A program made the position numbers and the translations under genes. This document shows, one piece after another, positions 1-24,589 of a stretch of 45,408 nt of DNA. The stretch covers positions 1-45,408 of the forward strand of contig NZ_RRYT01000036.1 in assembly GCF_006363815.1 (NCBI RefSeq), read 5' to 3'. Each line of letters starts with the position of its first letter. Position 1 is the stretch's first letter. The notes beneath the pieces were generated by a model, which saw only the letters and a list, made by a program, of their open reading frames with translations, searched no databases and was not told the origin of the DNA. Source of the stretch: Thermomonospora catenispora. GTDB lineage: Bacteria > Actinomycetota > Actinomycetes > Streptosporangiales > Streptosporangiaceae.

Positions 1-860
1 GCCATCTGCTCGTGCCCGGCGACCGCGCGCAGGGCCGCGGCGACCTCGGCGCTCGCCTGGCCCGCGGCGGCGCAGTGCAGCAGGCTGGCGGCCAGCGCCG
101 TGGTGCGGGTGTCGGCGTCGGCGGTGACCGCGGCGCCCAGCCAGTCGGCCAGCCAGGCGGCGGCGCCGCCCTGCCGCACCGACGCGCTCAGCGCGCGCAG
201 CGCCACCAGCAGCCCGGCCAGCACGTCGTCTCCGCTGGGGGTCAGCCCGGGCCCCAGGCCCACGATCCGCTCGGCGATCTCCACCGCGCCCGCCAGGTCG
301 CCGGCGGCGCACCGGGCCGCCAGCAGCGGCGGATCGGGATGCCCGGCCAGACCGAACCGGGACCCGGCGACGGCCTCCTCCAGCTCGCGCACGCCGTGGT
401 CCAATCGCGCCAGCGACAACGGGCCCAGCGCGGGCGAGGGGTCCCACCAGCGGCGCACCCGGACCCGCAGCGGCCCCGCCTCGACGTGGCCGTCGCCGAC
501 CCACGCCTCGGCGCCCTCCCCGACGCCCTCCAACGGCCGGTCCCGGCTGCCGGCGGCGATGACCACGGCGTTCGGCAGCCGCACCGCGTCGCTGGTCACC
601 ACGGCCAGCACCCGCGGCTCCTCGGCCGCCCGGGTCTCCAGGTAGACGGCCGAGGGGAACGCGGCGATCACCCGGGCGGGGACCCGGGGCGCCTCGAGCA
701 CGCGGCGCAGGCCGGTGCCGGCCGCACCGGGGACGGTCGGGCCGGCGGATCGGGCGGCGCCCGGCAGAACGGAAGCGGCGGATCGCGCCGAGCCCGCGAG
801 CGGAGGCCGGGACCGCTGCCGGGTGGGCAGGGCGACCGGCTCGCGCATGACGGCAGTCAC
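1..860 (-). CDS. DUF2877 family protein, AllH-like (3' end cut by window edge)
   Basis: Read on the minus strand from a GTG at 860, which is preceded by GGAGGG at good spacing; an in-frame ATG at 848 has no such site. About 286 codons are present before the window ends, close to the family's usual length. Residues 201-212 read GLGPGLTPSGDD, the signature of DUF2877. The family includes AllH of enterobacteria, which works with FdrA/AllF and AllG (DUF1116) in oxamate carbamoyltransferase, the phosphorolytic step of allantoin breakdown that feeds carbamate kinase. The first 45 or so residues are low-complexity Ala/Pro/Arg and look non-conserved. It is divergent from a PucR regulator, and a carbamate kinase lies at 22.5 kb. 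Partner genes fdrA and DUF1116 are not in the window; they would be expected beyond the left edge. Family membership is solid; the substrate is inferred. Confidence 0.82.
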   Translation of the reverse strand, partial: MTAVMREPVALPTRQRSRPPLAGSARSAASVLPGAARSAGPTVPGAAGTGLRRVLEAPRVPARVIAAFPSAVYLETRAAEEPRVLAVVTSDAVRLPNAVVIAAGSRDRPLEGVGEGAEAWVGDGHVEAGPLRVRVRRWWDPSPALGPLSLARLDHGVRELEEAVAGSRFGLAGHPDPPLLAARCAAGDLAGAVEIAERIVGLGPGLTPSGDDVLAGLLVALRALSASVRQGGAAAWLADWLGAAVTADADTRTTALAASLLHCAAAGQASAEVAAALRAVAGHEQM

Positions 861-897
861 AAGCCCTCCAGTCGTTGTTTTCTGGGAAACGTAGACC

Positions 898-911
898 CCG
901 GCCTAGGCCGG
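898..911. promoter_or_regulatory. 14-bp perfect palindrome in the divergent DUF2877/PucR spacer
   Basis: CCGGCCTAGGCCGG is perfectly self-complementary. It lies in the 171-base spacer between the two divergent starts, in a stretch that is otherwise less GC-rich than the genes. It is a plausible operator for the adjacent PucR regulator or another dimeric factor. I know no matching consensus. Confidence 0.35.
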
Positions 912-1031
912 ACGTATGGGGAAAGCTGCCAAGACTGGTTGCCAGCCTTCGTATTTCTTGTCAGTGTGGTCCGCGAAAATCAACAGGCGCGCCCTGGAGG
1001 GGATCGCACGCACCGGCAGGAGACCCTGGCA

Positions 1032-2795
1032 ATGCTTCCCGACAAGCTCACCGATCGCGCCTACGCCGCCGCCGATCCGGGACCCCCGGCGCTGCGGCTG
1101 GCCAGCACCGGCACCCTCACCTACGGGCTGTCGGTGGGGGAGGTGCTCGGGGTGTCCACGCTCAAGGGCGCCCGGCTCATCGGCGGACGGTCCGGGCTGG
1201 ACCGCATCGTGCAGCGGCTCAACGTCATGGAGGTCCCCGACATCCTGGCCTGGGTCAAGCCGAACGAGCTGCTGCTGACCACCGGCTACCCGCTGCGCAA
1301 CACCCCCCAGGCGCTGGAGAACCTGGTCGCCGATCTGGACGAGCGGGGGCTGTCGGCCCTGGGCGTCAAGCTCGGCCGCTATCTGGACAGGCTGCCGCCG
1401 CAGATGATCGAGCAGGCCGACCGGCTGGGCTTCCCGCTGATCCTGCTGCCGGCCGACGTCGGGTTCGACGACATCCTCAACCAGGTCCTCACCGACATCC
1501 TCAACCGGCAGGCGGCCGTGCTGGCGCGCACCGAGGAGGTGCACCGGGCGCTGGTGCAGATCGTGCTGAACGGCGGCGGCCTGCAGGAGGTGGTGGACGA
1601 GGTCGCCGAGCTGCTGGAGGTGGCGGTGGTGGCCATGGACGGCGACCGCCGCGCGCTGGCCGCGGCGGGGCCCGAGGATCAGGTGCGGGAGATGCTGGGC
1701 TGGGACGGCCCCGACCGCGCCTCCGGGCCGGTGCTGGCCGGCGAGCACCTGATGGTCCCGGTGCTGGCCGGGGGGTTCGACTACGGCCGGATCATCGCCC
1801 GCCGCCCCGCCGGGGGCCTGCGCGAGACCGACATGGTGGGGATCCTGGAGCGCGCCGCGACCGTGGTGGCGCTGCTGATCACCAAGCAGCAGGCGGTGGC
1901 CGCGGTGGAGAGCAAGTACCGCGCCGACTTCCTGCGCGACGTGCTGGCCGGGCGGGCCGGCGAGGACGACAGCGTCATCGCGCACGGCGCCGGGTTCGGC
2001 TGGGACCTGGACCGGCCCATGGTGGTGCTGGTGGCCGAGCTGGACGACCGCGCCTCAGGGGGCGGGGGCCGGGCGCGCGGCGAGCAGACCCCCGGCGGCG
2101 CCCGCTCCGCGCGCGGGCGCGGCGACGAGGAACGGATGGTGCAGGAACGGCTGGCCCAGGCGTGGACGACGGTGGTGCGCCGGCACGACCGGAACGGCGC
2201 GGTGGTCAGCTTCGCCCACGAGGTCGTCGCCATCGTCGGCGCCGCCGGACCGGACGGCCGCACGCCCGCCGGGTCGGCCGCCCCGGACCCGGCGTTGCTG
2301 GTCAAGGAGGCGACCGCGGTGTTCGGCGAGCCGCCCGGCCCCCGCCGCACGTTCTCCACAGGCATCAGCCGCACGGTGACCTCGCCGTCCGGACTGCCGG
2401 AGGCCTACGACCAGGCGGTCAAGGCGGTCCGGGTGGGGCGGCAGATGCACGGCGCCGGCGCCCGCGCCCACTTCGACCAGCTCGGCGTCTACCGGCTGCT
2501 CAGCCTGGTGTCCGACCCGACCGAGCTGCACGTGTTCGTCCGCGAGACGCTGGGCGGGCTCGCCACCGACGACGACCCCGAGGCGGTGGACCTGCGGCGC
2601 ACCCTGCAGGTGCTGCTGGACACCAACCTGAACGTCGCCGAGACCGCCCGGCAGCTGCACTTCCACTACAACACGCTGCGCTACCGGATCGGGAAGCTGG
2701 AGCGGATGCTCGGCCCGTTCACCGAGGACGCCCACCTGCGCCTCAACCTGACGCTGGCGCTGCACGTGATGCGCATGCGGGGCATCGGCATGTGA
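1032..2795 (+). CDS. PucR family transcriptional regulator
   Basis: 587 residues. An N-terminal PucR domain (about 30-155) starts at LSVGEVLGV and carries the typical NELLLTTGYPL stretch. A central GGDEF-like region follows. The C-terminal HTH_30 domain begins near residue 528 with LDTNLNVAETARQLHFHYNT and continues as LRYRIGKLE. PucR proteins activate purine or other nitrogen-compound catabolic genes. The ATG at 1032 is preceded by AGGAG about nine bases upstream and gives a normal family length; the reading frame is open further upstream, but that part overlaps the divergent gene and is not protein-like. It is divergent from the DUF2877 gene and codirectional with the permease and molybdenum hydroxylase genes, so it is the probable regulator of the locus. 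The ligand is unknown. Confidence 0.93.
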   Translation: MLPDKLTDRAYAAADPGPPALRLASTGTLTYGLSVGEVLGVSTLKGARLIGGRSGLDRIVQRLNVMEVPDILAWVKPNELLLTTGYPLRNTPQALENLVADLDERGLSALGVKLGRYLDRLPPQMIEQADRLGFPLILLPADVGFDDILNQVLTDILNRQAAVLARTEEVHRALVQIVLNGGGLQEVVDEVAELLEVAVVAMDGDRRALAAAGPEDQVREMLGWDGPDRASGPVLAGEHLMVPVLAGGFDYGRIIARRPAGGLRETDMVGILERAATVVALLITKQQAVAAVESKYRADFLRDVLAGRAGEDDSVIAHGAGFGWDLDRPMVVLVAELDDRASGGGGRARGEQTPGGARSARGRGDEERMVQERLAQAWTTVVRRHDRNGAVVSFAHEVVAIVGAAGPDGRTPAGSAAPDPALLVKEATAVFGEPPGPRRTFSTGISRTVTSPSGLPEAYDQAVKAVRVGRQMHGAGARAHFDQLGVYRLLSLVSDPTELHVFVRETLGGLATDDDPEAVDLRRTLQVLLDTNLNVAETARQLHFHYNTLRYRIGKLERMLGPFTEDAHLRLNLTLALHVMRMRGIGM

Positions 2796-2831
2796 ACGGC
2801 CGATCACCGCGAAACGACCGGTTAGCGCGAA

Positions 2832-2847
2832 TGTGATCTGGGGCACA
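2832..2847. promoter_or_regulatory. CRP/FNR-type binding site candidate upstream of the permease
   Basis: TGTGATCTGGGGCACA matches the CRP-type pattern TGTGA-N6-TCACA at nine of ten defined positions and sits inside a longer inverted repeat, AATGTG-N8-CACATT (2830-2849). It is about 145 bases before the permease start, in the spacer after the PucR gene. A CRP/GlxR-family regulator may couple the catabolic operon to carbon or energy status. Pattern match only. Confidence 0.45.
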
Positions 2848-2993
2848 TTGACCTGCCAAGGGGATGGTGCGCCTTTGGCACAAGTCGCCGAGGACTCCGT
2901 GCCGCACCCCCCTTATCTTCCCGCCAAGAACAGGCGTCGCGGCGGGTCACGGGCGACCGCCCCGGTCCTTCCGCCGAGACCGAGGGAGAGCAG

Positions 2994-4469
2994 ATGGCAT
3001 TCGGCTGGAAGGTGCACGGCGACGGGCGCAGCCCCGCGCCGGGCGAGGTGGTCATGCCCGACGAGCGGCTGAGCTGGCCGCGCACCGTGGGGCTGGGGGC
3101 CCAACACGTCATCGCCATGTTCGGCGCGACGTTCGTGTTCCCGCTGGTGATGGGGCTGGACCCGAACCTCGCGGTGATGATGTCCGGGGTCGCCACGATC
3201 CTGTTCCTGCTGATCGTGCAGGGGAGGGTGCCCAGCTACCTGGGCACCAGCGCCTCGTTCGTGGGCGGCGTGTTCGCCATTCGGGCCGGCGTGGACACCG
3301 CGCAGACCGACGCCTGGGTGACCGGGGCGATCCTGGTCGCCGGCGCGGTGCTGGCGCTGGTCGGGGTGGCGATCCACCTGCTTGGCCAGCAGATCATCCA
3401 CCGGGTGTTCCCGCCGCCGGTGACCGGCGCGGTGGTGATGCTGATCGGCTTCGGCCTGGCGTTCGTGGTGGCCGACACCTACTGGCCGCAGGACCACTGG
3501 GTGGCGCTGATCACGATGGCGTTCGTGTTCGTGGTCATGGTCGCCTTCCGCGGGTTCATCGGGCGGATCTCGATCCTGCTGGGGCTGGCGTTCGGGTTCG
3601 CGCTGTCGTGGGTGCTGGACCTGTTCGGGCCGGTCACCTCGGTGGTCCCCGGAGCCAACCTGCGCGGCCCCGACGGGCAGCCCTGCCCGGCCGAGGGCCC
3701 CTACTGCGTGGCCACCGCCTTCCCGCACGACCGGGTCGACTTCTCCGGCGTCAAGGAGGCCGCCTGGTTCGGGCTGCCGGACATGCACGCGCCCGACTTC
3801 AAGATGTCGGCGATCCTGCTGGTGCTGCCCGCGGTGATCGCGCTGATCGCCGAGAACACCGGGCACGTCAAGGCGGTCGGCGAGATGACCCGCACCGACC
3901 TGGACCCGATGATCGGCCGGGCCGTCTTCGCCGACGGCGCCGCCACCGTCGTCACCACCTCGGTCGGCGGCTCGCCCACCACCACCTACGCGGAGAACAT
4001 CGGGGTCATGGCCGCCACCCGGGTCTACTCCACCGCCGCCTACTACGTGGCGGCGGTCATCGCGATCCTGTTCGGGCTGTGCCCCAAGTTCGGCGCGCTG
4101 ATCGCGGCCACGCCCGGCGGCGTCCTCGGCGGCGTCACCGTCATCCTCTACGGCATGATCGGCCTGCTCGGCGCCAAGATCTGGGTGGAGGCCCGGGTCG
4201 ACTTCGCCGACCCGGTCAACATGGTCCCGCTCGGCGCCGGGATCATCCTGGCCATCGGCCCGGTGGTGCACCCCGTCACCGACGACTTCGGCCTGGAGGG
4301 GATCGCCCTGGGCACCATCGTGGTCCTGGTCGGCTACCACCTGCTGCGGGCGATCGCCGATCGGGTCGGCGACGGCGAGGTCTCCTACGGAGAGGTCGGC
4401 TTCGAGAAGGACCCCACCGGGGCGGTCGAGGGCCCGGGCGCGGATCCCGGAGGGGAAAGGCCGGTGTGA
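2994..4469 (+). CDS. NCS2 family uracil/xanthine permease, UraA-like
   Basis: 491 residues with many hydrophobic helices, typical of the NCS2 (UraA/XanQ) nucleobase:proton symporters of the cytoplasmic membrane. Two motifs are diagnostic. ENTGH near residue 285 corresponds to the first substrate-binding glutamate of UraA. AENIGVMAATRVYS near residue 333 matches UraA's ENIGVM(A/x)xTRVYS, where the Glu contacts uracil; xanthine and urate carriers normally have Gln-Asn there. I therefore infer a pyrimidine substrate, most likely uracil. The start has GAGGGAG just upstream. The next gene begins 7 bases after the stop, so it is cotranscribed with the molybdenum hydroxylase genes. The extracytoplasmic loop around residues 215-255 (after VVPGAN) is longer than in UraA. 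Confidence 0.95.
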   Translation: MAFGWKVHGDGRSPAPGEVVMPDERLSWPRTVGLGAQHVIAMFGATFVFPLVMGLDPNLAVMMSGVATILFLLIVQGRVPSYLGTSASFVGGVFAIRAGVDTAQTDAWVTGAILVAGAVLALVGVAIHLLGQQIIHRVFPPPVTGAVVMLIGFGLAFVVADTYWPQDHWVALITMAFVFVVMVAFRGFIGRISILLGLAFGFALSWVLDLFGPVTSVVPGANLRGPDGQPCPAEGPYCVATAFPHDRVDFSGVKEAAWFGLPDMHAPDFKMSAILLVLPAVIALIAENTGHVKAVGEMTRTDLDPMIGRAVFADGAATVVTTSVGGSPTTTYAENIGVMAATRVYSTAAYYVAAVIAILFGLCPKFGALIAATPGGVLGGVTVILYGMIGLLGAKIWVEARVDFADPVNMVPLGAGIILAIGPVVHPVTDDFGLEGIALGTIVVLVGYHLLRAIADRVGDGEVSYGEVGFEKDPTGAVEGPGADPGGERPV

Positions 4470-4476: not shown

Positions 4477-5355
4477 GTGAAACCGCCGCCGTTCGACTAC
4501 CGGGCCCCCCGCACCCTCGAGGAGGCGCTGGAGGACCTCGCCGAGGGCGGCAAGGTCCTGGCCGGAGGGCAGAGCCTGATCCCGCTGCTCAACATGAGGC
4601 TGGCCGCCCCCGAACGGCTGATCGACATCAACGGCGTCGCCAGCCTGGACGCCCTGGAGGTCACCGCGGCGGGCGTCCGGGCGGGGGCGCTGGCCCGGCA
4701 CGCGGCGGTGGAGCGCTCCGCCGAGGCGGCGGCCGTGCAGCCGCTGCTGCGTCAGGCGCTGCGGCACGTCGCCCACCCGGTGATCCGCAACCGCGGCACC
4801 GTGGTGGGCAGCCTGGCGCACGCCGACCCGGCCGCCGAGCTGCCCGCCGTGCTGGCGCTGCTGGACGGCCATGTGGAGGCGGCCTCGGCGTCCGGGCGGC
4901 GCACCGTCGCCGCGGCCGACTTCTTCACCGGCCCGCTGGAGTCGGCGCTGCGCCCCGAGGAGCTGGCGACCGCGGCGTTCTTCCCCGCCCTGCCGCCGCG
5001 GACCGGCACCGCCTTCGCCGAGCTGGCCCGCCGGCACGGCGACTACGCGTTGGTCGGAGCGGCGGCGCTGGTGACCCTCGACGACGATCTGCGGGTCCGC
5101 GCCGCCCGCGCCGCCTACCTCGGCGTCGCCGACACCCCCGTGGTGCTGGACCTGACCGGGCCCGCCGTGCAGGGACAGGAGGGCCGCCCGCCGGGGGCGG
5201 TCGACTGGTCGGCCGCGGCCGCCCACGCCGTCGCGCGGGTGAACCCCGGCGGCGACATCCACGCCGGGGCCGACTACCGCCGTCATCTGGTCGGCGTGCT
5301 CACCGGGCGCGCGCTGGCGGAGGCGGCCCGCAACGCACCGCCGGGAGGGACATGA
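4477..5355 (+). CDS. Molybdenum hydroxylase FAD-binding subunit (CoxM/XdhB type)
   Basis: 292 residues, a complete medium subunit of the xanthine dehydrogenase/CO dehydrogenase family. FAD-binding motifs are visible: AGGQSLIPLLNMRLA near residues 28-42 (pyrophosphate-binding loop) and IRNRGTVVGSLAHADP near 103-118. The C-terminal CO-dehydrogenase flavoprotein domain follows. The subunit passes electrons from the 2Fe-2S subunit to the final acceptor. The start is a GTG 7 bases after the permease stop with only a weak ribosome-binding site, consistent with translational coupling. It overlaps the 2Fe-2S gene by ATGA. The gene order M-S-L is that of cox-type operons. Confidence 0.94.
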   Translation: MKPPPFDYRAPRTLEEALEDLAEGGKVLAGGQSLIPLLNMRLAAPERLIDINGVASLDALEVTAAGVRAGALARHAAVERSAEAAAVQPLLRQALRHVAHPVIRNRGTVVGSLAHADPAAELPAVLALLDGHVEAASASGRRTVAAADFFTGPLESALRPEELATAAFFPALPPRTGTAFAELARRHGDYALVGAAALVTLDDDLRVRAARAAYLGVADTPVVLDLTGPAVQGQEGRPPGAVDWSAAAAHAVARVNPGGDIHAGADYRRHLVGVLTGRALAEAARNAPPGGT

Positions 5356-5852
5356 GCGGCGAACCCGTCTTCGAGATCACGATGACCGTCAACGGGGTGC
5401 GGCGCGGCGCGCGGGCCCCCGCCCGGCGGCTGCTGTCGGACTTCCTGCGCCACGACCTGGGCCTGACCGGCACCCACGTGGGCTGCGAGCACGGCGTGTG
5501 CGGCTGCTGCACCGTGCTGATGGACGGGGACCCCGTCCGCTCCTGCCTGACCCTGGCGATCACCGCCGCGGGGCATGAGATCACCACCGTCGAGGGACTG
5601 GCTCCCGGGGACGGGGAGCCGTCCCCGGTGCAGCGGGCGTTCCAGGAGTGCCACGGCCTGCAGTGCGGCTTCTGCACCCCCGGGTTCCTGTGCACGGTCA
5701 CCGCGCTGCTGCGCGACAACCCGCGCCCCACCGACGAGGAGGTGCTGGAGGGCATCTCCGGCAACCTGTGCCGCTGCACCGGGTACCAGAACATCGTCGC
5801 ATCGGTCCATCGCGCCGCCGAGCTCATCGCCGAGAGCGGGGACGGATCATGA
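5352..5852 (+). CDS. Molybdenum hydroxylase 2Fe-2S subunit (CoxS/XdhC type)
   Basis: 166 residues. The plant-ferredoxin-like cluster motif is in GCEHGVCGCCTVLMDG (around residue 45-60) with a further Cys at VRSC. The second, alpha-helical cluster uses QCGFCTPG (near 100) and GNLCRCTGYQNI (near 138). All eight cluster cysteines expected of the family appear present. It relays electrons from the molybdenum cofactor to FAD. The start overlaps the previous stop as ATGA and has GGGAGGGAC upstream; the end overlaps the large subunit start, again as ATGA, so the three subunits are translationally coupled. Confidence 0.96.
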   Translation: MSGEPVFEITMTVNGVRRGARAPARRLLSDFLRHDLGLTGTHVGCEHGVCGCCTVLMDGDPVRSCLTLAITAAGHEITTVEGLAPGDGEPSPVQRAFQECHGLQCGFCTPGFLCTVTALLRDNPRPTDEEVLEGISGNLCRCTGYQNIVASVHRAAELIAESGDGS

Positions 5853-8257
5853 GCACGTCCATGTTCGGGGAGCCGATCCCGCGGCGGGAGGACCCCAGGC
5901 TGCTGACCGGACAGGGCCGCTACCTGGACGACCTGGGCCGGGGCGCGCTGGCCGCGGCGTTCGTGCGGTCGCCGCACGCGCACGCCCGCATCGAGGGGAT
6001 CGACGTGGACGCCGCGCTCGACGTCGACGGGCTGGTGGCGATCTACACCCACGAGGACCTGCCCCCCGGGGTCGGGGACCCCCTTCCGCTGCTGATCCCG
6101 CATCCGGCGCTCACCCACGGCCGCACCGCCCGCCCGCTGGCCCGCGACGTGGTCCGGCACGTGGGCGAGCCGGTGGCCATGGTGGTGGCCCGCGACCGCT
6201 ACCTGGCCGAGGACGCCGCCGAACGGATCCGCGTCGACTACGAGGTGCTGCCCGCCGTCGTCGGGATCGAGAACGCGGCGGCGGCCGAGCGCCTCGTGCA
6301 CGAGGACGTCCCCGGCAACGTGGGGGCGCACCTGGTGCAGGAGGTGGGCGACGCGCCCGCCGCCGTCGCCGCCGCCCCGCACCGGCTGGAGTTCCGCCTC
6401 GACATCGAGCGCAGCGCCTCGATGCCGCTGGAGGGACGCGGCGTGTACGCCCGCTGGGACCCCGACGAGGGGTCGCTGCGGGTGTACTCCTCCACGCAGA
6501 CCTCCACCGGCGTGCGGATGGCGCTGGCCGCCCGGCTCGGCCTGCCCAAGACCAAGGTCGAGGTCATCGCCCCCGACGTCGGCGGCGGCTTCGGCGTCAA
6601 GGTGGTCCACCCCTGGCCGGAGGAGGTGCTGGTGCCGTGGGCGGCGCGGCTGCTCGGCCGGGAGGTCAAGTGGACCGAGGACCGCCGGGAGCACTTCGTG
6701 GGCGCCGCCCACGAACGCGGCCAGGTGCAGCGCGTGCGGGTCGGCTTCGACGACGCCGGGCGGATCCTCGGCCTGGACGTGACGATCCTGCACGACCACG
6801 GGGCCTACACGCCGTACGGGATCATCGTCCCGATCGTCACCTCCACCCAGCTGCCGGGCCCCTACAAGCCGGGGGCCTACCGGGTGGAGTTCACCAGCCT
6901 CTACACCAACACCGTCATCGTCACCCCCTACCGGGGCGCCGGGCGGCCGCAGGGCGTGTTCTGCATGGAGCGGACGATGGACAAGATCGCCGCTCATCTG
7001 GGGCTGGACCGCGCCGAGGTGCGCGCGGCCAACTTCATCCGGCCCGAGGAGTTCCCCTACGACCAGGGCCTGACCTTCCAGGACGGGCGTCCGCTGATCT
7101 ACGACTCCGGCGACTACCCCCGGATGCTCGAGATGATCAAGGAGCTGATCGGCTGGGACGGCTTCGCGGAGGAGCGGGAGGCGGCGCGCCGCGAGGGCCG
7201 CCGGATCGGCATCGGGCTGGGCTGCTACGTGGAGGGCACCGGGGTCGGCCCCTACGAGGGCGGCCATGTGGAGATCGACTCCACCGGCCGGGTGCACGTC
7301 GCCACCGGCCTGACCTCCCAGGGCCAGGGGCACCAGACGGTGTTCGCCCAGATCGCCGCCGCCGAGCTGGGGGTGCCGATCGAGGACGTGACGGTCGCCA
7401 CCGGCGACACCCGCCGGTTCGGGTACGCGGTCGGCACGTTCGCCTCCCGCGCCGCCGTGATGAGCGGCAACGCCATCGCGCTGGCCTGCCGCAGGGTCCG
7501 GGACAAGGCGCTGCGGATCGCCGGGGAGGCGCTGGAGGCCGACCCCCGCGACCTGGAGATCACCGACGGGGTGGTGCACGTCCGCGGCGACCCCACGGCC
7601 GCGATCCCGCTGCGCACGGTGGCGGTGCTGGCCAACCCGCTGCGGTACGCGTTCGACGAGGAGGCCCGCCGCGCCACCCAGTTCGCGGTGGGCGGATCGC
7701 CGGACGAGCCGCCGGTGCCGGCCGGGGAGGAGCCGGGGCTGGAGGGCCGTGACTACTACTCGCCGGTGCGGTCGACGTTCGCCTCGGGGATGCACGCCGC
7801 CGTCGTGGAGACGGACCCCGAGACCGCCGAGATCCGCATCCTGCGGTACGCGGTCGTGCACGACTGCGGCCGCATGATCAACCCGCGGATCGTGGAGGGG
7901 CAGATCCACGGGGGAGTGGCGCAGGGCGTCGGCGGGGCGCTGTATGAGCGGATGGTCTACGACGAGTCCGGTCAGCTGCTCAACGCCTCGTTCATGGACT
8001 TCCTCATGCCGTACGCGACCGAGGTGCCGCGGATCCGGACCGGGCACCTGGAGACGCCCTCCCCGCTGAACCCGCTGGGCATCAAGGGCGCGGGAGAGGC
8101 CGGGGTGATCCCGGTGTCGGCGGTGATCGCCTCCGCCGTCGAGGACGCCGAGGGCATCCGGATCGACGCCATGCCGCTGTCGCCGGACGGGCTGTTCCGG
8201 CTGCGGCGGCGGGCCGCCGTCGACCCCGCTCTGCGCGTGGAGCGCCTCCCGGCATGA
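5849..8257 (+). CDS. Molybdenum hydroxylase large (Mo-pterin) subunit, form-II CoxL-like
   Basis: 802 residues, aldehyde oxidase/xanthine dehydrogenase fold. The N-terminal domain begins with REDPRLLTGQGRYLDDL. The active-site loop near residue 363 reads PYRGAGRPQ, the general xanthine-dehydrogenase-like (form II) version, not the AYRCSFR loop of true CO dehydrogenases. The catalytic glutamate lies in GIKGAGEAG near residue 747. So this is not a CO dehydrogenase; it hydroxylates a heterocycle or aldehyde. Next to a UraA-like permease and with a barbiturase in the window, uracil/thymine oxidation to barbiturates is a reasonable guess; xanthine or another azaheterocycle remains possible. The ATGA overlap with the 2Fe-2S gene fixes the start. 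Confidence 0.94.
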   Translation: MSTSMFGEPIPRREDPRLLTGQGRYLDDLGRGALAAAFVRSPHAHARIEGIDVDAALDVDGLVAIYTHEDLPPGVGDPLPLLIPHPALTHGRTARPLARDVVRHVGEPVAMVVARDRYLAEDAAERIRVDYEVLPAVVGIENAAAAERLVHEDVPGNVGAHLVQEVGDAPAAVAAAPHRLEFRLDIERSASMPLEGRGVYARWDPDEGSLRVYSSTQTSTGVRMALAARLGLPKTKVEVIAPDVGGGFGVKVVHPWPEEVLVPWAARLLGREVKWTEDRREHFVGAAHERGQVQRVRVGFDDAGRILGLDVTILHDHGAYTPYGIIVPIVTSTQLPGPYKPGAYRVEFTSLYTNTVIVTPYRGAGRPQGVFCMERTMDKIAAHLGLDRAEVRAANFIRPEEFPYDQGLTFQDGRPLIYDSGDYPRMLEMIKELIGWDGFAEEREAARREGRRIGIGLGCYVEGTGVGPYEGGHVEIDSTGRVHVATGLTSQGQGHQTVFAQIAAAELGVPIEDVTVATGDTRRFGYAVGTFASRAAVMSGNAIALACRRVRDKALRIAGEALEADPRDLEITDGVVHVRGDPTAAIPLRTVAVLANPLRYAFDEEARRATQFAVGGSPDEPPVPAGEEPGLEGRDYYSPVRSTFASGMHAAVVETDPETAEIRILRYAVVHDCGRMINPRIVEGQIHGGVAQGVGGALYERMVYDESGQLLNASFMDFLMPYATEVPRIRTGHLETPSPLNPLGIKGAGEAGVIPVSAVIASAVEDAEGIRIDAMPLSPDGLFRLRRRAAVDPALRVERLPA

Positions 8258-9438: not shown

Positions 9439-10104
9439 ATGAAGGTCACCGGGAGCGCCACCCTCGCCGCCCCTCCGCCCAGGGTCTGGGACGCGCTGCG
9501 GGACCCGGCGGTGCTGGCCCGCAGCATCCCCGGCTGCCACGGTCTGGAGGCGCTGGGCGACGACGCGTACAAGGTGACGATCACCGCGGGGGTCGCCGCC
9601 GTCAAGGGCACCTATGTCGGTCGGGTCGCGCTGGCCGAGCCGAAGCCGCCGCACTCGTTCGTGCTGCGCGCCCGCGGTCAGGGCGCCCCGGGCACGGTGG
9701 AGGCCACCGTCACCGTCCGGCTCTCCGAGGAGGCGGGCGGCACCCGGGTCGACTACGACGCCGACGCGGTCGTCGGCGGCATGCTCGGCGGCGTCGGCCA
9801 ACGGATGCTCGGCAGCGTCGCCCGGCGCACCGCCGGCGAGTTCTTCAGCGCGGTGGAACGCCAGCTCACCGCCCCCGCCCCGGCGCCCGAGCCCGCCTTC
9901 GCCCCGGGGGAGGCCCCGGCGTCGGAGGAGGCCGCGGCCCGCCCGGAGACCGCGAGGGTCTTCCCCGGCCGGGCCGCCGGACCCGCCCTCGCCGGAGCGG
10001 GCCCGGCCGGGCCGATGGCGCTGGCGTTCGGGATGGGCGGCCTGGTCGCGTTGGCCGGCGTGGTCGTCGGGTACGCCCTGGGACGTCGCCGCGGCGCCGG
10101 CTGA
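9439..10104 (+). CDS. CoxG-like SRPBCC family protein with C-terminal anchor
   Basis: 221 residues. Residues 1-145 form an SRPBCC/CO-dehydrogenase subunit G domain, beginning MKVTGSATLAAPPPRVWDAL and with DYDADAVVGGMLGGVGQRM later. A Pro/Ala/Glu-rich linker (about 148-188) leads to one transmembrane helix (about 192-215) ending in RRRGAG. CoxG proteins are membrane-bound partners of molybdenum hydroxylases; in CO oxidisers CoxG helps attach the enzyme to the membrane. The neighbouring form-II molybdenum hydroxylase is its likely partner, although the deacetylase gene intervenes on the other strand. The membrane-anchor role is inferred from the family. Confidence 0.9.
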   Translation: MKVTGSATLAAPPPRVWDALRDPAVLARSIPGCHGLEALGDDAYKVTITAGVAAVKGTYVGRVALAEPKPPHSFVLRARGQGAPGTVEATVTVRLSEEAGGTRVDYDADAVVGGMLGGVGQRMLGSVARRTAGEFFSAVERQLTAPAPAPEPAFAPGEAPASEEAAARPETARVFPGRAAGPALAGAGPAGPMALAFGMGGLVALAGVVVGYALGRRRGAG

Positions 10105-10177: not shown

Positions 10178-11155
10178 ATGCGCAGGTTCATCGCGGCGGC
10201 GGTGCAGCTGGCCCCGGCCCCCGGCCCGCTGACCGCCGCGTCGGTCGACGCCAATCTGGACAAGGCCCAGTCCTTCGTGCGGCGCTGCGTGGCCGCCACC
10301 GGCGCCGAGCTGGTCGTGCTGCCGGAGTCGTGCACCACCGGGTTCACCCCCGGCGTGCCGGTGGAGGAGCTGTGGTCGCTGGTGTCGGCCGTGCCCGGAC
10401 CGATCACCGAGCCGCTCCAGCAGGCCGCCCGGGAGCTGGGCGTGCACGTGTGCATGGGCACCTATGAGCGCGGCGCCGGCCGGGGCGCCGTGCACAACGC
10501 GGCGGTGCTGATCGGCCCCGCCGGCGACGTCCTCGGCGTCTACCGCAAGACCCACCCGTTCGGCGCCGAGAACGCCGCCGACGGCGGATGGACGACCCCC
10601 GGGACGGACGTGTGCGTGGTCGACACCGGGCTCGGCCGGATCGGCATGGCCGTCTGCTTCGACGGGGACTTCCCCGAGCTGTGGCGCATCCAGGCGGTGC
10701 GCGGCGCCGAGGTGATCTGCCGCCCGTCGGCGCTGCTGCGGTCGGCCGACGTCTGGGAGCTGACCAACCGGGCCCGCGCCTACGACAACCACGTCCATGT
10801 GATCGGCGCCAACGCGGTCGGCGCCGACCCGGCGGGCACCCTGTACTTCGGCAACTCGATGATCGTGACCCCGATCGCCGAGGTGGTGGCGCGGGCGGCG
10901 ACCCACGAGTCCTGGACGGCCGCCGAGCTCGACCCCGACCGGGCGATGGCGTCGCTGTCGCCGGGCTCGTCGGTGCCGCAATCGTTCGACCACCTGGCCG
11001 CCCGCAACCTGGAGCTCTACGACAAGCACGCCGCCGACCTGCTGGGGCCGGCCCGGACGCCGTTCCCCCACGGCCCCGCCCCCGGCGGGGCGCCGGCGGG
11101 GTGCGGCCCGGCCGCACCGGGGGCGGAGGGATCCCGCACCGGCCCCGGCGCGTGA
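10178..11155 (+). CDS. Carbon-nitrogen hydrolase (nitrilase superfamily)
   Basis: 325 residues. The catalytic triad of the superfamily is visible: Glu50 in LPESCTTGF, Lys124 in YRKTHPFG, and Cys160 in AVCFDGDFPE. The enzyme should hydrolyse an amide or nitrile in the cytoplasm. The start has GGAGAGGAGG seven bases before the ATG. The last 40 or so residues after FPHGP are low-complexity Pro/Gly/Ala and probably dispensable; they end inside a 14-base tandem repeat. It follows the CoxG-like gene by 73 bases on the same strand. In the catabolic scheme suggested here it could act on a malonamate-like or ureido product. That is speculation; the substrate cannot be read from the sequence. Confidence 0.9.
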   Translation: MRRFIAAAVQLAPAPGPLTAASVDANLDKAQSFVRRCVAATGAELVVLPESCTTGFTPGVPVEELWSLVSAVPGPITEPLQQAARELGVHVCMGTYERGAGRGAVHNAAVLIGPAGDVLGVYRKTHPFGAENAADGGWTTPGTDVCVVDTGLGRIGMAVCFDGDFPELWRIQAVRGAEVICRPSALLRSADVWELTNRARAYDNHVHVIGANAVGADPAGTLYFGNSMIVTPIAEVVARAATHESWTAAELDPDRAMASLSPGSSVPQSFDHLAARNLELYDKHAADLLGPARTPFPHGPAPGGAPAGCGPAAPGAEGSRTGPGA

Positions 11156-14285: not shown

Positions 14286-14417
14286 CGCTGCTCTTTCCGT
14301 CTTCTTGCGTCTCTTCGTCGCCCGTCGCGCGTTCGGCGGTCTCCTCGCCGTCGGCCGTGGCCGCAGCCACCCTATAGGTGCCCGCGGCGCTATCCCGAAA
14401 CGGGCGGGCGGCCGGAC

Positions 14418-14970
14418 CGCACGGGGGCGGAGATCCGCCCGTTCGGCGAGGCGGGCGCGGTGGCGGCGGCCCGCCGGTTCCGCGAGCAGGGCGTCACCGC
14501 GATCGGGGTGTGCTTCCTGCACTCCTACGCCGACCCGGCGCACGAGCCGGCGATGCGCGAGGTGCTGCGCCGCGAGCACCCCGAGGCGGTGGTGTCGCTG
14601 TCGCGTGAGGCGCTGCGCGAGTACCGCGAGTACGAGCGGGCCGTCACGACGCCGGTGGACGCCGCGGTCAAGCCGACGATGAGGCGCTACATCGACCGGA
14701 TCGCCCGCCGGCCGGAGCCGCCGGGACCGCCGCCGTCCTCGGTGGAACGGGAGGTGGAGACCGCCGTCGCGCGGACCGCCCGGTCGCCGATGATCCGCGA
14801 CGCCCACGACTTCCGCGCCGGCGTCCGCGACCGGAGGCCGCGCAAGCTCGTCGGACGGTCGTGCTCGGCGCCGGCGCACCCGATCGTGCGGGACTTCCCC
14901 ATCGAGACGATGCGCCCCGGGGACGTGTCCTTCCACGACGACGTGCACCTGCCGAGGGCGGCCCCGGCCG
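14418..14970 (+). pseudogene. Remnant of hydantoinase genes: hyuA fragment joined to hyuB fragment
   Basis: One frame from 14418 shows an interior piece of the hydantoinase A/oxoprolinase N-terminal domain, with GVTAIGVCFLHSYADPAHEP, then LREYREYERAVTTPVDAAVK and a PTMRRYIDRI end. After a Pro-rich joint (about 14705-14745) it switches to the start region of hydantoinase B: VARTARSPMIRDAHDFRAGV, a weakened cis-proline/His stretch, and RPGDVSFHDDVHLP. The HyuA start with its ATP-binding GGTFTD motif, most of HyuA, and most of HyuB are absent. No plausible start or ribosome-binding site precedes it. I read this as a deletion-fused relic of an ATP-dependent hydantoinase or oxoprolinase operon. 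The frame runs on without a stop into the next gene, so a domain prediction could wrongly merge the two. Confidence 0.75.
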
Positions 14971-16455: not shown

Positions 16456-17247
16456 TCAGAACACGTCGCGGCGGCGATGCGCCAACGACGGCAGCATCCG
16501 GCGGACCCGCTCGGTGACCGCCGTGTCGATCTCCCCGGTCATCACCGTCGCGAACGGCCCCAGGTCCGCCAGCACCGTCCCCATCGGATCGACCAGCATG
16601 CTGCGGCCCACCCCGCCCGGGGCGCCCTTCGGCGGCGGGGTGCGGTCCGGCGCCTTGTCGACGGCGACCACCCAGGCGGTGTTCTCGATGGCGCGGGCCC
16701 GCACCAGCGTGGTCCAGTGCTCCTCCTTGAACACCCCCTGCGCCCACGCCGCGATGATCACCAGGACCTCCGCGCCCCGGTCCACCAGCGCCCGCGCCAG
16801 CTCGGGGAAGCGCACGTCATAGCAGGTGATCAGGCCGATCCGCAGACCCGCCAGCTCCACCACCGCCGGGGCGTCGCCGGGCGCGACCCGTTCGGACTCG
16901 CGGTCGCCGAACGCGTCGAACAGATGGATCTTGCGGTACGTCCCGACCAGCTCCCCGGTCCCGTCGATCGCCACCGCGGTGTTGTAGACCCGGTCGTCGC
17001 CGGCGGGTTCGAACACCCCGGCGATCAGCGCGATCCCGTGCTCGCGGGCCGCCTCCCTCAGCTCACCGACGAACGGCCCGTCCAGCGGCTCGGCGACCTC
17101 GGCCAGCGCGTTGCCGAAACGCACCTGCACCGCCTCCGGGAACACCGCCAGATCCGCCCCCGCGGCCCTCTCCAGGGCCGCGCGGATCTGGCCGAGGTTC
17201 TCCTTCGGGTCGTCGCCCACCGGGATCTGACACAGTGCCACGCGCAT
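16456..17247 (-). CDS. Nit-like carbon-nitrogen hydrolase
   Basis: 263 residues from the ATG at 17247, which has CTGGGGGC immediately upstream; an ATG at 17268 adds seven residues but has no ribosome-binding site. Catalytic residues: Glu38 in VFPEAV, Lys106 in YRKIHLFDAFG, and Cys142 in ITCYDVRFPEL. The RKIHLFD and CYDxRFPE versions are typical of the Nit1/YbeM branch (deaminated glutathione amidase and omega-amidase-like enzymes), so metabolite repair is the likely role. An amidase role in the nearby nitrogen-heterocycle catabolism cannot be excluded. It is divergent from the ABC transporter gene, with an inverted repeat between them. Confidence 0.9.
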   Translation of the reverse strand: MRVALCQIPVGDDPKENLGQIRAALERAAGADLAVFPEAVQVRFGNALAEVAEPLDGPFVGELREAAREHGIALIAGVFEPAGDDRVYNTAVAIDGTGELVGTYRKIHLFDAFGDRESERVAPGDAPAVVELAGLRIGLITCYDVRFPELARALVDRGAEVLVIIAAWAQGVFKEEHWTTLVRARAIENTAWVVAVDKAPDRTPPPKGAPGGVGRSMLVDPMGTVLADLGPFATVMTGEIDTAVTERVRRMLPSLAHRRRDVF

Positions 17248-17260
17248 GCCCCCAGCATGA

Positions 17261-17276
17261 CATGACAACTGTCATG
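17261..17276. promoter_or_regulatory. Inverted repeat CATGACA-N2-TGTCATG, operator candidate
   Basis: Perfect 7-base arms separated by AC, in the 108-base spacer between the divergent Nit-like hydrolase and the ABC transporter/two-component operon. The left arm overlaps the alternative hydrolase start at 17268. The symmetry suggests a dimeric repressor site controlling one or both units. No regulator is identified. Confidence 0.4.
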
Positions 17277-21040: not shown

Positions 21041-21057
21041 CCCCTCCCCGGTGCGGG

Positions 21058-21189: not shown

Positions 21190-21201
21190 TAGGCTTGCCG
21201 C
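21190..21201 (+). promoter_or_regulatory. -10 element TAGGCT, leaderless start
   Basis: TAGGCT (21190-21195) ends six bases before the GTG start at 21202. The sequence between and before holds no Shine-Dalgarno. Confidence 0.5.
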
Positions 21202-22365
21202 GTGAGCGAGCCACTCGTGTCCCGCATGCAGGGTTTCGGCACCACGATCTTCGCGGAGATGACCGCTCTCGCCGTGCGCACCGGCGCCATCAACCTCGGT
21301 CAGGGCTTCCCCGACAGTCCCGGTCCGCGGCCGATGCTGGAACGGGCCGCCGCCGCCATCCGCGACGGCGACAACCAGTACCCGCCCGGGCCCGGCGTCG
21401 CCGAGCTGCGGGAGGCCGTCTCCCGGCAGCGGGCGCAGCGGTACGGGCTCGCCTACGACCCCGACGGCGAGGTCCTGATCACGGTGGGGGCGACCGAGGC
21501 CGTCGCCGCCGCGATCCTGGCGCTGGCCGGACCGGGCGAGGAGGTGGTGGTCTTCGAGCCCTACTACGACTCGTACGCGGCGATGATCGCGCTGGCCGGG
21601 GCGGTGCGGCGGCCGGTCACGCTGCGGCCCGAGGGCGGCCGGTTCACCTTCGACCCCGACGAGCTGCGCGCCGCGGTCGGCCCCCGCACCCGGATGATCC
21701 TGGTGAACTCCCCGCACAACCCGGTGGGCACCGTGTTCACCCGCGAGGAGCTGGAGGTCATCGCGGAGCTGTGCCGCGAGCGCGACCTGATCGCCGTCAC
21801 CGACGAGGTGTACGAGTACCTGACGTTCGACGACGCCGAGCATGTGCCGCTGGCCTCGCTGGAAGGGATGCGGGAGCGGACCGTGGCGATCTCCTCGGCG
21901 GGCAAGACGTTCTCGGTCACCGGCTGGAAGGTCGGCTGGGTCACCGCGCCCGCCCGGTACGTGCGGGCCGTGCAGACCGTCAAGCAGTTCCTCACCTACA
22001 CCGCCTCGGCCCCCTACCAGCGGGCGGTCGCCTACGCCCTGGAGAACGAGCTGGCCTGGGTGGCGGGGCTGCGCGCCTCCCTGCAGGCCAAACGGGACCG
22101 CCTGATCACCGGGCTGGAGGCCGCCGGGTTCACCGTGTTCCGACCGCAGGGCACCTACTTCGTGCAGGCCGACATCCGTCCGCTCGGGTTCGCCGACGGC
22201 ATGGAGCTGGCCCGCGCGCTGCCCGACAAGGCCGGGGTGGTGGCCGTCCCGTCCCAGGTCTTCTACGACCGCGCCGAGGCGGGGGCGCGCTTTTTGCGGT
22301 TCGCGTTCTGCAAGCGGGACCATGTGATCGACGAGGCGGTCGCCCGCCTGTCGCGGCTGCGGTGA
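21202..22365 (+). CDS. Class I/II PLP-dependent aminotransferase
   Basis: 387 residues, fold type I. The PLP-binding lysine is in SSAGKTFSVTGWKVGW (Lys near residue 236). Other class landmarks are LGQGFPDSP near 34, a substrate-loop Tyr in EPYYDSYAA near 118, VNSPHNPVGTVF near 170, DEVYEYLTF near 202, and the carboxylate-binding Arg in FLRFAFCK near 371. The N-terminus and QYPPG resemble the methionine/kynurenine aminotransferase and actinobacterial DapC-like (N-succinyldiaminopimelate) branch; which substrate is used cannot be told. The GTG start is supported by the -10 just upstream. It is followed by its own hairpin, so it is probably monocistronic. Confidence 0.92.
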   Translation: MSEPLVSRMQGFGTTIFAEMTALAVRTGAINLGQGFPDSPGPRPMLERAAAAIRDGDNQYPPGPGVAELREAVSRQRAQRYGLAYDPDGEVLITVGATEAVAAAILALAGPGEEVVVFEPYYDSYAAMIALAGAVRRPVTLRPEGGRFTFDPDELRAAVGPRTRMILVNSPHNPVGTVFTREELEVIAELCRERDLIAVTDEVYEYLTFDDAEHVPLASLEGMRERTVAISSAGKTFSVTGWKVGWVTAPARYVRAVQTVKQFLTYTASAPYQRAVAYALENELAWVAGLRASLQAKRDRLITGLEAAGFTVFRPQGTYFVQADIRPLGFADGMELARALPDKAGVVAVPSQVFYDRAEAGARFLRFAFCKRDHVIDEAVARLSRLR

Positions 22366-22375
22366 GGGAGGACGC

Positions 22376-22402
22376 GGCCGCGGCGAGGACCCCGCCGAGG
22401 CC
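22376..22402. terminator. Hairpin after the aminotransferase gene
   Basis: GGCCGCGGCG (22376-22385) pairs with CGCCGAGGCC (22393-22402) at nine of ten positions around a 7-base loop, 10 bases after the stop. It separates the aminotransferase from the carbamate kinase unit. Confidence 0.45.
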
Positions 22403-22503
22403 GCGGCGGCCCGGTCTCCTCAGCGCCTCATCGGCCATAACCTGCCGAAACAGCGCTCTCCGTTAGGCGGATTTCGCCCATGAGCCGCCCGCCCGGCCGG
22501 GGC

Positions 22504-22515
22504 TACCTTCGGCAG
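22504..22515 (+). promoter_or_regulatory. -10 element TACCTT, leaderless start of the kinase-barbiturase unit
   Basis: TACCTT (22504-22509) ends six bases before the GTG at 22516. This supports 22516, rather than the in-frame ATG at 22480, as the start of carbamate kinase. Confidence 0.5.
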
Positions 22516-23466
22516 GTGGGCACCTCGGGCGAACGGCTGCTGGTCGCGCTGGGCGGCAACGCGATGACCGCCCCCGACGGCAGCGCGGCACCGCGGGATC
22601 AGGAGGCGGCGGTGCGGGTGGCCATGGAACGGGTGGCCGACGTGATCGCCGAAGGGCGCCAGGTGGCCCTCACCCACGGCAACGGCCCCCAGGTCGGCAA
22701 TCTGCTGATCAAGAACCAGCTGGCCGTCCGGGTGGTGCCGCCGGTGCCGCTGGACTGGTGCGGCGCGCAGACCCAGGCCACCATCGGGATGCTCATGGTC
22801 GGGGCGCTGGAGCACGCGCTCGCCGAACGCGGCGCGCCCCGCCCGGTGACCACCGTGATCACCCGGACCCTGGTGGACGTCGCCGACCCGGCCTTCCGGC
22901 ACCCCAGCAAGCCGATCGGCCGGTACTTCTCCGAGAACGCCGCCCGCTCCTTCATCGCCCGCGGGGAGAGCTGGCGGTCGTTCGGCGCGCGCGGCTGGTG
23001 GCGGGTGGTGGCCTCCCCGGAGCCGCTGGAGATCCTCGACGTCTCCGCGGTGGAGGCGCTGATGGCCGCCGGGCACGTGGTGGTCGCGGCCGGCGGCGGG
23101 GGAGTGCCGGTGGCCCGCGCCGCCGACGGCTCCCTGCACGGCGTGGAGGCCGTCATCGACAAGGACCTGGCCGCCGCGCTGCTGGCCCGTCGGATCGGCG
23201 CCGCCGCTCTGATCATCGCCACCGACGTGACGCACGTCATGCTCGGCTACGGCACCTCCCGGCAGCGCCCGCTGACCCGCGTCACCCCCGAGGAGCTGCG
23301 CGCCCTGGCCGCCGCCGGGCACTTCGCCGAGGGGAGCATGGCCCCCAAGGTCGAGGCCGCGCTGCGGTTCATCGCCGGCGGCGGGCGGCGAGCCGTGATC
23401 ACCGCGCTGGACCGCATCGCGGATGCGGTCCACGGCGACGCCGGAACCGTCATCGAGGAGGACTGA
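22516..23466 (+). CDS. arcC: Carbamate kinase
   Basis: 316 residues from the GTG. Amino-acid-kinase landmarks: [11 protein letters not shown] near the N-terminus, [19 protein letters not shown] near 52-70, [21 protein letters not shown] near 190-200, and [13 protein letters not shown] near 212-224. It converts carbamoyl phosphate and ADP to ATP and carbamate. No arginine deiminase or ornithine carbamoyltransferase gene is nearby; instead the barbiturase-family gene starts 4 bases after the stop. This makes the kinase part of a heterocycle-degradation operon, where carbamoyl phosphate would come from phosphorolysis of a ureido compound, as in the AllFGH-AllK route. The adjacency is observed; the pathway role is inferred. 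Confidence 0.95.
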
Positions 23467-23470
23467 GCGC

Positions 23471-24589
23471 ATGCCTCACGCGACGCCCGATCCGATCGAG
23501 GTGCGCAAGGTGCCGATCAAGCACGTCGCCGACGCCTCCGGACTGGCCGAGCTCATCGACGCCGGGGTGATCGAGGCCGACCGGGTGCTGGCCGTGATCG
23601 GCAAGACCGAGGGCAACGGCGGCGTCAACGACTACACCCGCATCCTCGCCGATCGGGCGTTCCGGGAGGTGCTCATCGCCAAGGGCGCCCGCACCCCGGA
23701 GGAGGTCGCCGAGGTGCCGCTGGTGTGGTCGGGCGGCACCGACGGGGTGCTCAGCCCGCATGCGACGATCTTCGCCTCCGTCGACCCGGCCCGGGCCCCG
23801 GCCACTGACGAGCCGCGGCTGTCGGTCGGGATCGCGATGAGCGAGGTGATCCTGCCCGAGGACATCGGCCGTCCCGCCATGGTGGAGAAGGTCGCCGCGG
23901 GGGTCCGCGAGGCCATGAAGGTCGCCGGGATCGACGATCCGGCCGACGTCCACTACGTGCAGACCAAGACCCCGCTGCTCACCCTGGACGCCGTCAACGA
24001 CGCCAAGAGCCGGGGCCGCGACGTGGTCACCGAGGACACCCTCAAGTCCATGGACGTCTCCAACTCCACCACCGCCCTCGGCATCGCCGTGGCACTGGGG
24101 GAGATCGAGATGCCCGCCGCCGAGCAGATCCACCGCGACCTGTCGCTGTACTCGTCGGTGGCGTCCTGCTCCTCGGGGGTGGAGCTGGACCGGGCGCAGA
24201 TCGTGCTGGTGGGGAACGTCCGCGGCATCGGCGGCCGGTACCGCATCGGCCACTCGGTGATGAGGGACGCGCTGGACGCCGACGGCATCTGGGAGGCGAT
24301 CCGCTCCTCCGGCATCGAGCTGCCCGAGCGCCCCCGCCCCGACGACCTGGACGGACGGCTGGTGAACGTGTTCCTCAAGTGCGAGGCCGACCCCAGCGGC
24401 CGGGTGCGCGGGCGCCGCAACATCATGCTGGACGACTCCGACGTGCACTGGCACCGGCAGATCAAGGCGTGCGTCGGCGGGGTCGCCGCCAGCGTCACCG
24501 GGGATCCCGCCGTGTTCGTGTCGGTCGCCGCCGTGCACCAGGGCCCCTCCGGGGGCGGACCCGTGGCGGCCATCGCCGACCTGGGCTGA
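23471..24589 (+). CDS. Ring-opening amidohydrolase: barbiturase/cyanuric acid hydrolase family
   Basis: 372 residues. The family has three structurally related units, each giving a Ser-Lys pair to one active site. Visible candidates: Lys45 in [16 protein letters not shown] with Ser87 in [11 protein letters not shown]; Lys near 166 in VQTKTPLLT with the serine cluster in [11 protein letters not shown] near 230; Lys near 303 in FLKCEAD with [14 protein letters not shown] near the C-terminus. The family contains barbiturase (barbiturate to ureidomalonate) and cyanuric acid hydrolase. An actinobacterial host, a UraA-like permease and a molybdenum hydroxylase in the same window favour barbiturase. 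GGAGG lies upstream of the ATG, and the carbamate kinase stop is 4 bases away, so the two are cotranscribed. A strong hairpin follows. Confidence 0.93.

Follow-up and report, generated by a model that had tools for sequence, protein, structure and literature searches.

Barbiturase-linked AllFGH and carbamate kinase genes in actinobacteria suggest a phosphorolytic, energy-conserving route of uracil breakdown

The window analysed here, 45,408 nucleotides at the start of contig C39 of Thermomonospora catenispora (C39:1-45408; genome of 5.35 Mb in 109 contigs), raises the question of why a barbiturase gene should be accompanied by a carbamate kinase gene and by a gene of the AllFGH complex. The oxidative pyrimidine pathway, in the part of PMC3758960 that describes it, ends with ureidomalonase, which gives malonate and urea. 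For E. coli, the section of PMC11326118 on AllFGH and its kinase describes a ureido acid being split with phosphate to carbamoyl phosphate, from which ATP is then made. We consider it likely that the locus encodes oxidative catabolism of uracil in which the third step is phosphorolytic and conserves energy, and we infer all of the chemistry from the genes. A sequence-only reading of the window had proposed this phosphorolysis, and the proposal is supported by AllFGH genes beyond the window's edge, by co-occurrence and linkage, by a barbiturase-specific clade of AllG and by an amidase gene in four genomes that have no AllG. What was observed directly is which genes are present, how they are linked and co-occur, that the AllG proteins form a clade of their own with fixed residues, and that the known uricase, allantoinase and AllD supply of oxalurate is absent from this genome.

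In the proposed pathway, UraA would import uracil under the control of PucR, as judged from the families of both proteins. The three-subunit molybdenum hydroxylase (Mo-hydroxylase), together with CoxG, XdhC and MobA-like proteins, would oxidise uracil to barbiturate, which is suggested by linkage and by similarity to an N-heterocycle hydroxylase. Barbiturase would open the barbiturate ring to ureidomalonate, and a barbiturase-specific AllFGH would then split ureidomalonate with phosphate into malonamate and carbamoyl phosphate, as with oxalurate. Because ureidomalonate is oxalurate plus one CH2, this would be the simplest chemistry joining the linked genes. The adjacent carbamate kinase would convert carbamoyl phosphate and ADP to ATP, CO2 and ammonia; in genomes without the kinase, carbamoyl phosphate could enter biosynthesis, a use mentioned in the relevant text of PMC11326118. 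An amidase, perhaps the CN hydrolase of the locus, would free malonate from malonamate.

The genes named by the sequence-only reading were recovered with Pfam and NCBIfam profiles and checks of the reading frames, with allH on the minus strand. The features of the window and of a second contig of the same genome, C70, are as follows.

1 to 848, minus strand: allH, AllFGH subunit (PF11392, 60 bits, profile positions 1-79 of 109; 3' end missing, start codon uncertain)
1134 to 2795, plus strand, start approximate: PucR-type regulator, divergent from allH (PF07905, 121.8 bits; PF13556; PF17853)
2994 to 4469, plus strand: NCS2 (UraA-type) nucleobase permease (PF00860, 243.6 bits; TIGR03616, 352.7 of 758.65 bits)
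4477 to 5355, plus strand: Mo-hydroxylase FAD subunit (PF00941, PF03450)
5352 to 5852, plus strand: Mo-hydroxylase 2Fe-2S subunit (PF01799, PF00111)
5855 to 8257, plus strand, start approximate: Mo-hydroxylase large subunit, proposed uracil-oxidising enzyme (NF040766, 1514 bits)
9439 to 10104, plus strand: CoxG-like protein, which recurs beside the Mo-hydroxylase (PF06240, 87 bits)
10193 to 11155, plus strand, start approximate: nitrilase-superfamily CN hydrolase (PF00795, 162.8 bits)
14388 to 14951, plus strand: remnants of hyuA and hyuB, hydantoinase/oxoprolinase (tblastn, 61-85% identity, short parts only)
22480 to 23466, plus strand: carbamate kinase (PRK12352, 302.9 bits, over the cut-off of 266; TIGR00746, 342 bits, under 358.25)
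23471 to 24589, plus strand: barbiturase (PF09663, 505 bits; 607 bits to PDB 5hwe)
Contig C70, L002:264-1748, outside the window: fdrA (NF004760, 403 bits, under the cut-off of 433)
Contig C70, L002:1771-3183, outside the window: allG (DUF1116; PF06545, 325 bits)

The left edge of the window is the end of its contig, where allH is truncated at base 1. From there the order is allH on the minus strand, the divergent pucR, the permease, the FAD, FeS and large subunits of the Mo-hydroxylase, a polysaccharide deacetylase gene on the minus strand, coxG and the nitrilase-superfamily gene. About 11 kb of other genes, which profiles identified as ClpC, AlkZ-like, a second CN_hydrolase, ABC, two-component system and aminotransferase genes, lie between this cluster and the pair of carbamate kinase and barbiturase. 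The spacing of 4 bases reported earlier for that pair is exact, with the kinase ending at 23466 and the ATG of barbiturase at 23471. The fdrA and DUF1116 genes predicted to lie left of position 1 were both found on C70, together with DUF6986, XdhC-like and MobA-like genes. There was no sequence overlap between C70 and C39. C70 is nevertheless most likely the piece immediately left of the window, because a genome of the same genus (G055) has these genes in one row in the expected order: MobA, XdhC-like, DUF6986, AllG, FdrA, AllH, PucR, UraA, Mo-hydroxylase, deacetylase, CoxG, CN_hydrolase, ClpC and, further on, carbamate kinase and barbiturase (pieced from two adjoining stretches). All three AllFGH subunits are present in the genome, with FdrA below its model cut-off and AllH on the truncated gene. 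DUF6986 (L002:3416-4624), an HpcH/HpaI aldolase-like protein that was considered as a possible pathway member, is encoded 3' of allG in the window's genus and a few relatives, and adjoins AllG in only some genomes.

The assignment of the window's AtzD/TrzD-family protein as a barbiturase is firm, its activity being predicted from likeness to a solved barbiturase: the entry 5hwe, named 'Barbiturase', scored 607 bits, against at most 336 bits for the other six solved family members. The NCBIfam name cyanuric acid amidohydrolase (482.8 bits, cut-off 360) was rejected on this comparison. According to the part of a published analysis that covers this position, Arg188 of cyanuric acid hydrolase is replaced by glutamine in the barbiturase subgroup; in our alignments, read by eye, the Arg of the hydrolase 6bum (SRGASALG), whose correspondence to Arg188 is assumed, faces Asn in the window protein and, via this query, in 5hwe. 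The AtzD/TrzD cyanuric acid hydrolase pathway shares its protein family with the window barbiturase but differs in that the window protein is much closer to the solved barbiturase and that its recurrent neighbours are the Mo-hydroxylase, permease, carbamate kinase and AllFGH. For the Mo-hydroxylase, the name aerobic carbon monoxide (CO) dehydrogenase (NCBIfam group 5 model, 1514 bits) was rejected because the loop of the large subunit reads PYRGAGR, where the active site of form I CO dehydrogenases has AYxCSFR, and because among solved proteins it scores highest with quinoline 2-oxidoreductase (473 bits, against 364-446 for CO dehydrogenases and 190 for xanthine dehydrogenase). Judging by these comparisons, both automatic names are probably wrong for this group. 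The best NCBIfam models for the permease were RutG and uracil permease, each under its cut-off. The kinase belongs to the carbamate kinase family, being over the cut-off of PRK12352 and slightly under that of TIGR00746.

In a Pfam-based search of 200 genomes of the order, Streptosporangiales, barbiturase-family matches were found in 132 and AllG matches in 132, with both in 130 and neither in 66; AllG is thus present in 130 of the 132 barbiturase-positive genomes (Fisher p = 7e-48, a figure that ignores relatedness and is not a true probability). The Mo large subunit (E 1e-280) was detected in 130 genomes, every one barbiturase-positive; among the barbiturase genomes only G181 and G006 (77% complete) lack a match. 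A carbamate kinase match at E 1e-50 was found in 123 of the 132 barbiturase-positive genomes versus 14 of the 68 barbiturase-negative ones. Barbiturase and AllG share a contig in 90 of the 130 genomes that have both. Their median distance is 35.9 kb, with 89 of the pairs no more than 130 kb apart, and in 87 of these 90 the two genes are divergent, as in the window. Carbamate kinase adjoins barbiturase in 27 of the 29 best-scoring loci of the order (window locus excluded). Among 80 named loci, each covering up to 10 kb on either side of barbiturase, 78 had room for a kinase upstream and 51 had one within about 450 bases; many of the other 27 are from Nonomuraea and Actinomadura. Barbiturase without AllG was found in G004 and G021, and AllG without barbiturase in G096 and G121. 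G004 has an FdrA match with one in-frame stop near a contig end, so its AllG may lie in a gap, and in a second barbiturase genome without an AllG match (G220, from outside the order) FdrA is likewise at or near a contig end. The AllG of G121 is a distant, lower-scoring form (237 bits).

The association reaches beyond the order. Among 296 genomes drawn from the phylum, a barbiturase-family match was found in 18 and an AllG match in 36, and 14 of the 18 have AllG at 300 bits or more. The other four carry weaker or more distant family members (G423 and G282, 46% and 38% identity over the match; G413, 373 bits; G424, 309 bits, partial). For the 34 named barbiturase loci outside the order, AllG was found in 27 of the 33 genomes searched. 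Eight barbiturase regions from other classes (within L199-L207) were examined, and in four of them barbiturase, permease, kinase, AllFGH and Mo-hydroxylase genes form a co-directional run. In L199, L200 and L203 the run consists of barbiturase, permease, carbamate kinase, AllH, FdrA, AllG, the Mo FAD, FeS and large subunits and CoxG, with PucR divergent; L206/L207 has the same genes co-directional in a different order, and also an amidase, HyuA, HyuB and a CoA-transferase. An opposite-strand gene is interposed in L201, and the L204 stretch stops just past AllG. In L199 the AllG and Mo genes are separated by response-regulator and PAS-domain genes, and in L206 a PAS gene comes after the permease. 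The genes for barbiturase, Mo-hydroxylase, AllFGH and carbamate kinase are thus strongly linked, in other classes as well, and the co-occurrence expected from the window alone holds across Actinomycetota.

An alternative is that AllFGH serves purine (allantoin) breakdown as an ordinary oxamate carbamoyltransferase, with barbiturase and the kinase nearby by chance or through shared regulation. The proteins do belong to the same family as those of E. coli (identity 49% for AllG, 40% for FdrA (AllF) and 42% for the kinase to AllK; 29% for AllH, over 99 residues only), and purine clusters, too, typically contain PucR and NCS2 permeases. Uricase was found in 118 of the 130 genomes with barbiturase and AllG, but it is nearly as common in the genomes with neither (54 of 66), so it hardly tracks AllG. 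In the genome of T. catenispora there was no match at E 0.001 to uricase (PF01014) or to Ldh_2 (PF02615, the AllD family) in a search limited to these enzyme families for their steps, and the best allantoinase match (TIGR03178) scored 232 bits, below the cut-off of 357.85. Both uricase and Ldh_2 are missing from eight of the 130 genomes, that of T. catenispora among them, although G126, another of these eight, has an allantoinase that passes the cut-off. An oxalurate supply from purines was rejected as the main role of AllFGH on these grounds, namely the absence here of uricase, of the AllD family and of an allantoinase above the cut-off, and the weak tie between uricase and AllG across the order. 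The presence of AllG in nearly all barbiturase-positive genomes and the co-directional clusters in other classes also speak against purine breakdown, as does the AllG phylogeny described next, and we regard this alternative as quite unlikely.

The AllG tree contained 87 rows, taken from the best 30 AllG loci of the order, 29 from outside the order and separately taken stretches; duplicates (L033, L048) were omitted, and the residue counts leave out L084 and L195. Seventy-three barbiturase-linked rows fall on one side of a single branch (support 97/91), and they did so in 94% of 200 bootstrap trees. The other 13 rows, E. coli among them, lie on the opposite side; several of these outgroup rows have long branches and an unsure placement of their own. 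At His385 of the E. coli motif NTGIAH, all 72 linked rows counted have Gly (H385G), where 12 of the 13 others have His. At Glu372 the same 72 rows all have Arg (E372R), as does 1 of the 13 others. The AllG of T. catenispora, in which these two residues are Gly438 and Arg425, neither groups with E. coli AllG nor shares the His of NTGIAH. In FdrA the linked rows, set against 9 others, carry Asp at the position of Ser304 (47 of 48) and Thr at that of Asp306 (46 of 48). It is our guess that H385G, E372R and the FdrA changes touch the substrate; fixed residues in a single clade can also reflect descent alone.

A different possibility is that AllFGH, though part of the cluster, has some other ureido acid as its substrate, such as the one formed by the ATP-dependent hydantoinase HyuAB, and that ureidomalonate is hydrolysed by an unseen amidase. 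HyuA and HyuB genes, longer than the window remnants, lie near barbiturase and carbamate kinase in many clusters of relatives (24 of the 80 named loci have a HyuB that is at least 60% identical), and the proposed pathway assigns them no step. Three loci without barbiturase (L210, L212 and L214) hold Mo-hydroxylase, HyuA, HyuB, FdrA and AllG, where HyuAB possibly opens another ring, e.g. hydantoin or parabanate, feeding AllFGH. However, their AllG proteins fall outside the barbiturase-linked clade and keep the E. coli-type His. In the window, HyuAB is reduced to remnants while AllFGH and barbiturase have been kept, and Haloechinothrix has HyuAB without AllG. A role of AllFGH downstream of HyuAB is on this evidence an unlikely explanation, though it deserves some weight.

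If ureidomalonate is split by AllFGH, an amidase taking the place of AllFGH and carbamate kinase would be expected in some genomes, and Rhodococcus-type genomes and Haloechinothrix offer such a contrast. Barbiturase without AllG was found in R. erythropolis (L144, genome G209), Rhodococcus sp. (L149), Rhodococcoides fascians (L155) and Haloechinothrix halophila (L143), in which the FdrA model gave only weak matches of about 36-39 bits in its succinyl-CoA-ligase-like part. In all four, a PF01425-type amidase gene lies directly 3' of barbiturase (for example L144, 11230-12723, and L143, 11166-12710), with 40% identity between the Rhodococcus and Haloechinothrix copies. From its position, this amidase is a candidate ureidomalonase.

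The same amidase bears on the third alternative, in which the described hydrolytic pathway (ureidomalonase, giving malonate and urea) also operates here and AllFGH and the kinase are a side use of carbamoyl phosphate. Hydrolysis is the last step in the published account cited above, and in an AllG-bearing locus (L163, genome G227) a Rhodococcus-like amidase (42% identical) adjoins barbiturase, while L206, which bears AllG too, holds a more distant one (29% identical). Against this, among the loci compared an amidase with at least 38% identity occurs only in the three Rhodococcus-type genomes, Haloechinothrix and L163. The window gave no match to the Rhodococcus-type amidase, in a search that covered the loci and not the remainder of the genomes. 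We regard this alternative as highly unlikely.

Together with the HyuAB genes and the amidases of L163 and L206, several further observations weigh against the proposed phosphorolysis of ureidomalonate. The 200 genomes of the order are related to one another, so their counts are not independent, and 9 of the 132 barbiturase-positive genomes gave no carbamate kinase match at E 1e-50. Catenulispora rubra (L159, genome G223) has barbiturase, carbamate kinase, HyuAB and Mo-hydroxylase with neither AllG nor an AllFGH-type FdrA, and Marinactinospora (L083, genome G021) has barbiturase and Mo-hydroxylase without AllG, FdrA, an adjacent kinase or a recognised adjacent amidase. Seven of the 296 phylum genomes have AllG at 300 bits or more without barbiturase, and within the stretches examined L202 has no carbamate kinase and L205 no Mo-hydroxylase. 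In G181 barbiturase is a fragment (68 bits) and the FAD, FeS and CoxG genes are truncated, with no match to the Mo large subunit or the kinase at the thresholds given, while AllFGH is still open. G096 keeps AllFGH, the permease and PucR without barbiturase, Mo large subunit or carbamate kinase at the same thresholds; its AllG is shortened and fast-evolving, lying inside the barbiturase-linked clade on a branch of 0.66 versus 0.06-0.07 for its two sisters. The decay in these two genomes fits the loss of one pathway with AllFGH disappearing last, but also allows a separate role of AllFGH. Finally, no one malonamate amidase recurs across all clusters.

For this last step, a nitrilase-type amidase yielding malonate had been suggested from the window. 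The CN hydrolase gene (10193-11155) is indeed present, but at 55% identity or more it was found near barbiturase in just 5 of the 80 named loci, so that it is a weakly supported candidate for malonamate amidase. A family III CoA-transferase (PF02515) is encoded near barbiturase in 30 of the 80 named loci (e.g. L143:12704-13930, L146:11013-12323 and L067:15543-16988), with no match in the window; it could perhaps activate malonate. The second CN hydrolase of the window (16456-17271, deaminated-glutathione-amidase-like) and the aminotransferase (21202-22365) also recur close to barbiturase across many of the order's named loci, and may be an unrelated omega-amidase/transaminase pair. Further right, four shikimate pathway genes are consecutive at 27160-30411 (chorismate synthase, shikimate kinase, dehydroquinate synthase and type II dehydroquinase).

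Compared with known systems, the proposed phosphorolytic pathway resembles the oxidative pathway of R. erythropolis in the oxidation of the uracil ring to barbiturate and its opening to ureidomalonate. Pyrimidine use by strain JCM 3132 is mentioned in a passage of PMC3961730 that cites Soong 2002. The barbiturase of R. erythropolis L144 is 76% identical to that of the window and has a similar Mo-hydroxylase, UraA and PucR nearby. The two differ in that the R. erythropolis genome has no AllG match, and in that its barbiturase gene is followed immediately by an amidase gene and is not immediately preceded by a kinase gene. Ureidomalonase itself is reported to come from R. erythropolis. The third step described for the oxidative pathway is hydrolysis (in the pathway description of PMC3758960).

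With the oxamate branch of E. coli (oxamic transcarbamylase, allFGHK) the loci share three subunits and a carbamate kinase. The substrate, however, comes from allantoin enzymes in E. coli and would come from barbiturase here, the AllG proteins form a separate clade with H385G and E372R, and the gene order in compact barbiturase clusters is carbamate kinase-AllH-FdrA-AllG as opposed to fdrA-ylbE-ylbF-ybcF. In ammonia oxidisers, according to the parts of PMC12625717 that treat these genes, allFGHK lies next to biuH/atzF and away from the upstream purine genes. That arrangement differs from ours in being tied to biuret hydrolase genes and in being interpreted there as oxalurate use; barbiturase has 0 mentions in the main text of that paper. 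In our literature search, from whose coverage most subscription journals were excluded, the titles and abstracts listed held no description of the proposed route, and no barbiturase paper also mentioned carbamate kinase.

To summarise, many soil actinobacteria have a linked gene set that probably serves to oxidise uracil, open its ring and cleave the product with phosphate in place of water, which would let the kinase recover ATP. Judged from genomes, it seems reasonably probable that a widespread actinobacterial AllFGH subfamily, recognisable by Gly and Arg where E. coli AllG has His385 and Glu372, is a ureidomalonate transcarbamylase which, with barbiturase and carbamate kinase, would allow aerobic soil bacteria to gain ATP from the uracil ring by substrate-level phosphorylation, and that the clusters also point to the Mo-hydroxylase genes as those of uracil oxidation and to the Rhodococcus/Haloechinothrix amidase gene as that of the hydrolytic ureidomalonase. 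So far, oxidative pyrimidine breakdown has been portrayed as a rare pathway that ends in hydrolysis, with AtzD/barbiturase homologues in 3% of 6423 genomes (a figure cited in the text of PMC3758960); here barbiturase and AllG occur together in 130 of 200 genomes of one order. If the proposal is right, it would add an undescribed branch of pyrimidine breakdown and give gene candidates for the uracil-oxidising enzyme and for ureidomalonase. It would also call for caution with the automatic names cyanuric acid amidohydrolase and CO dehydrogenase in such genomes. AllFGH would have a second natural substrate, and the recurrence of carbamate kinase beside barbiturase would be accounted for.

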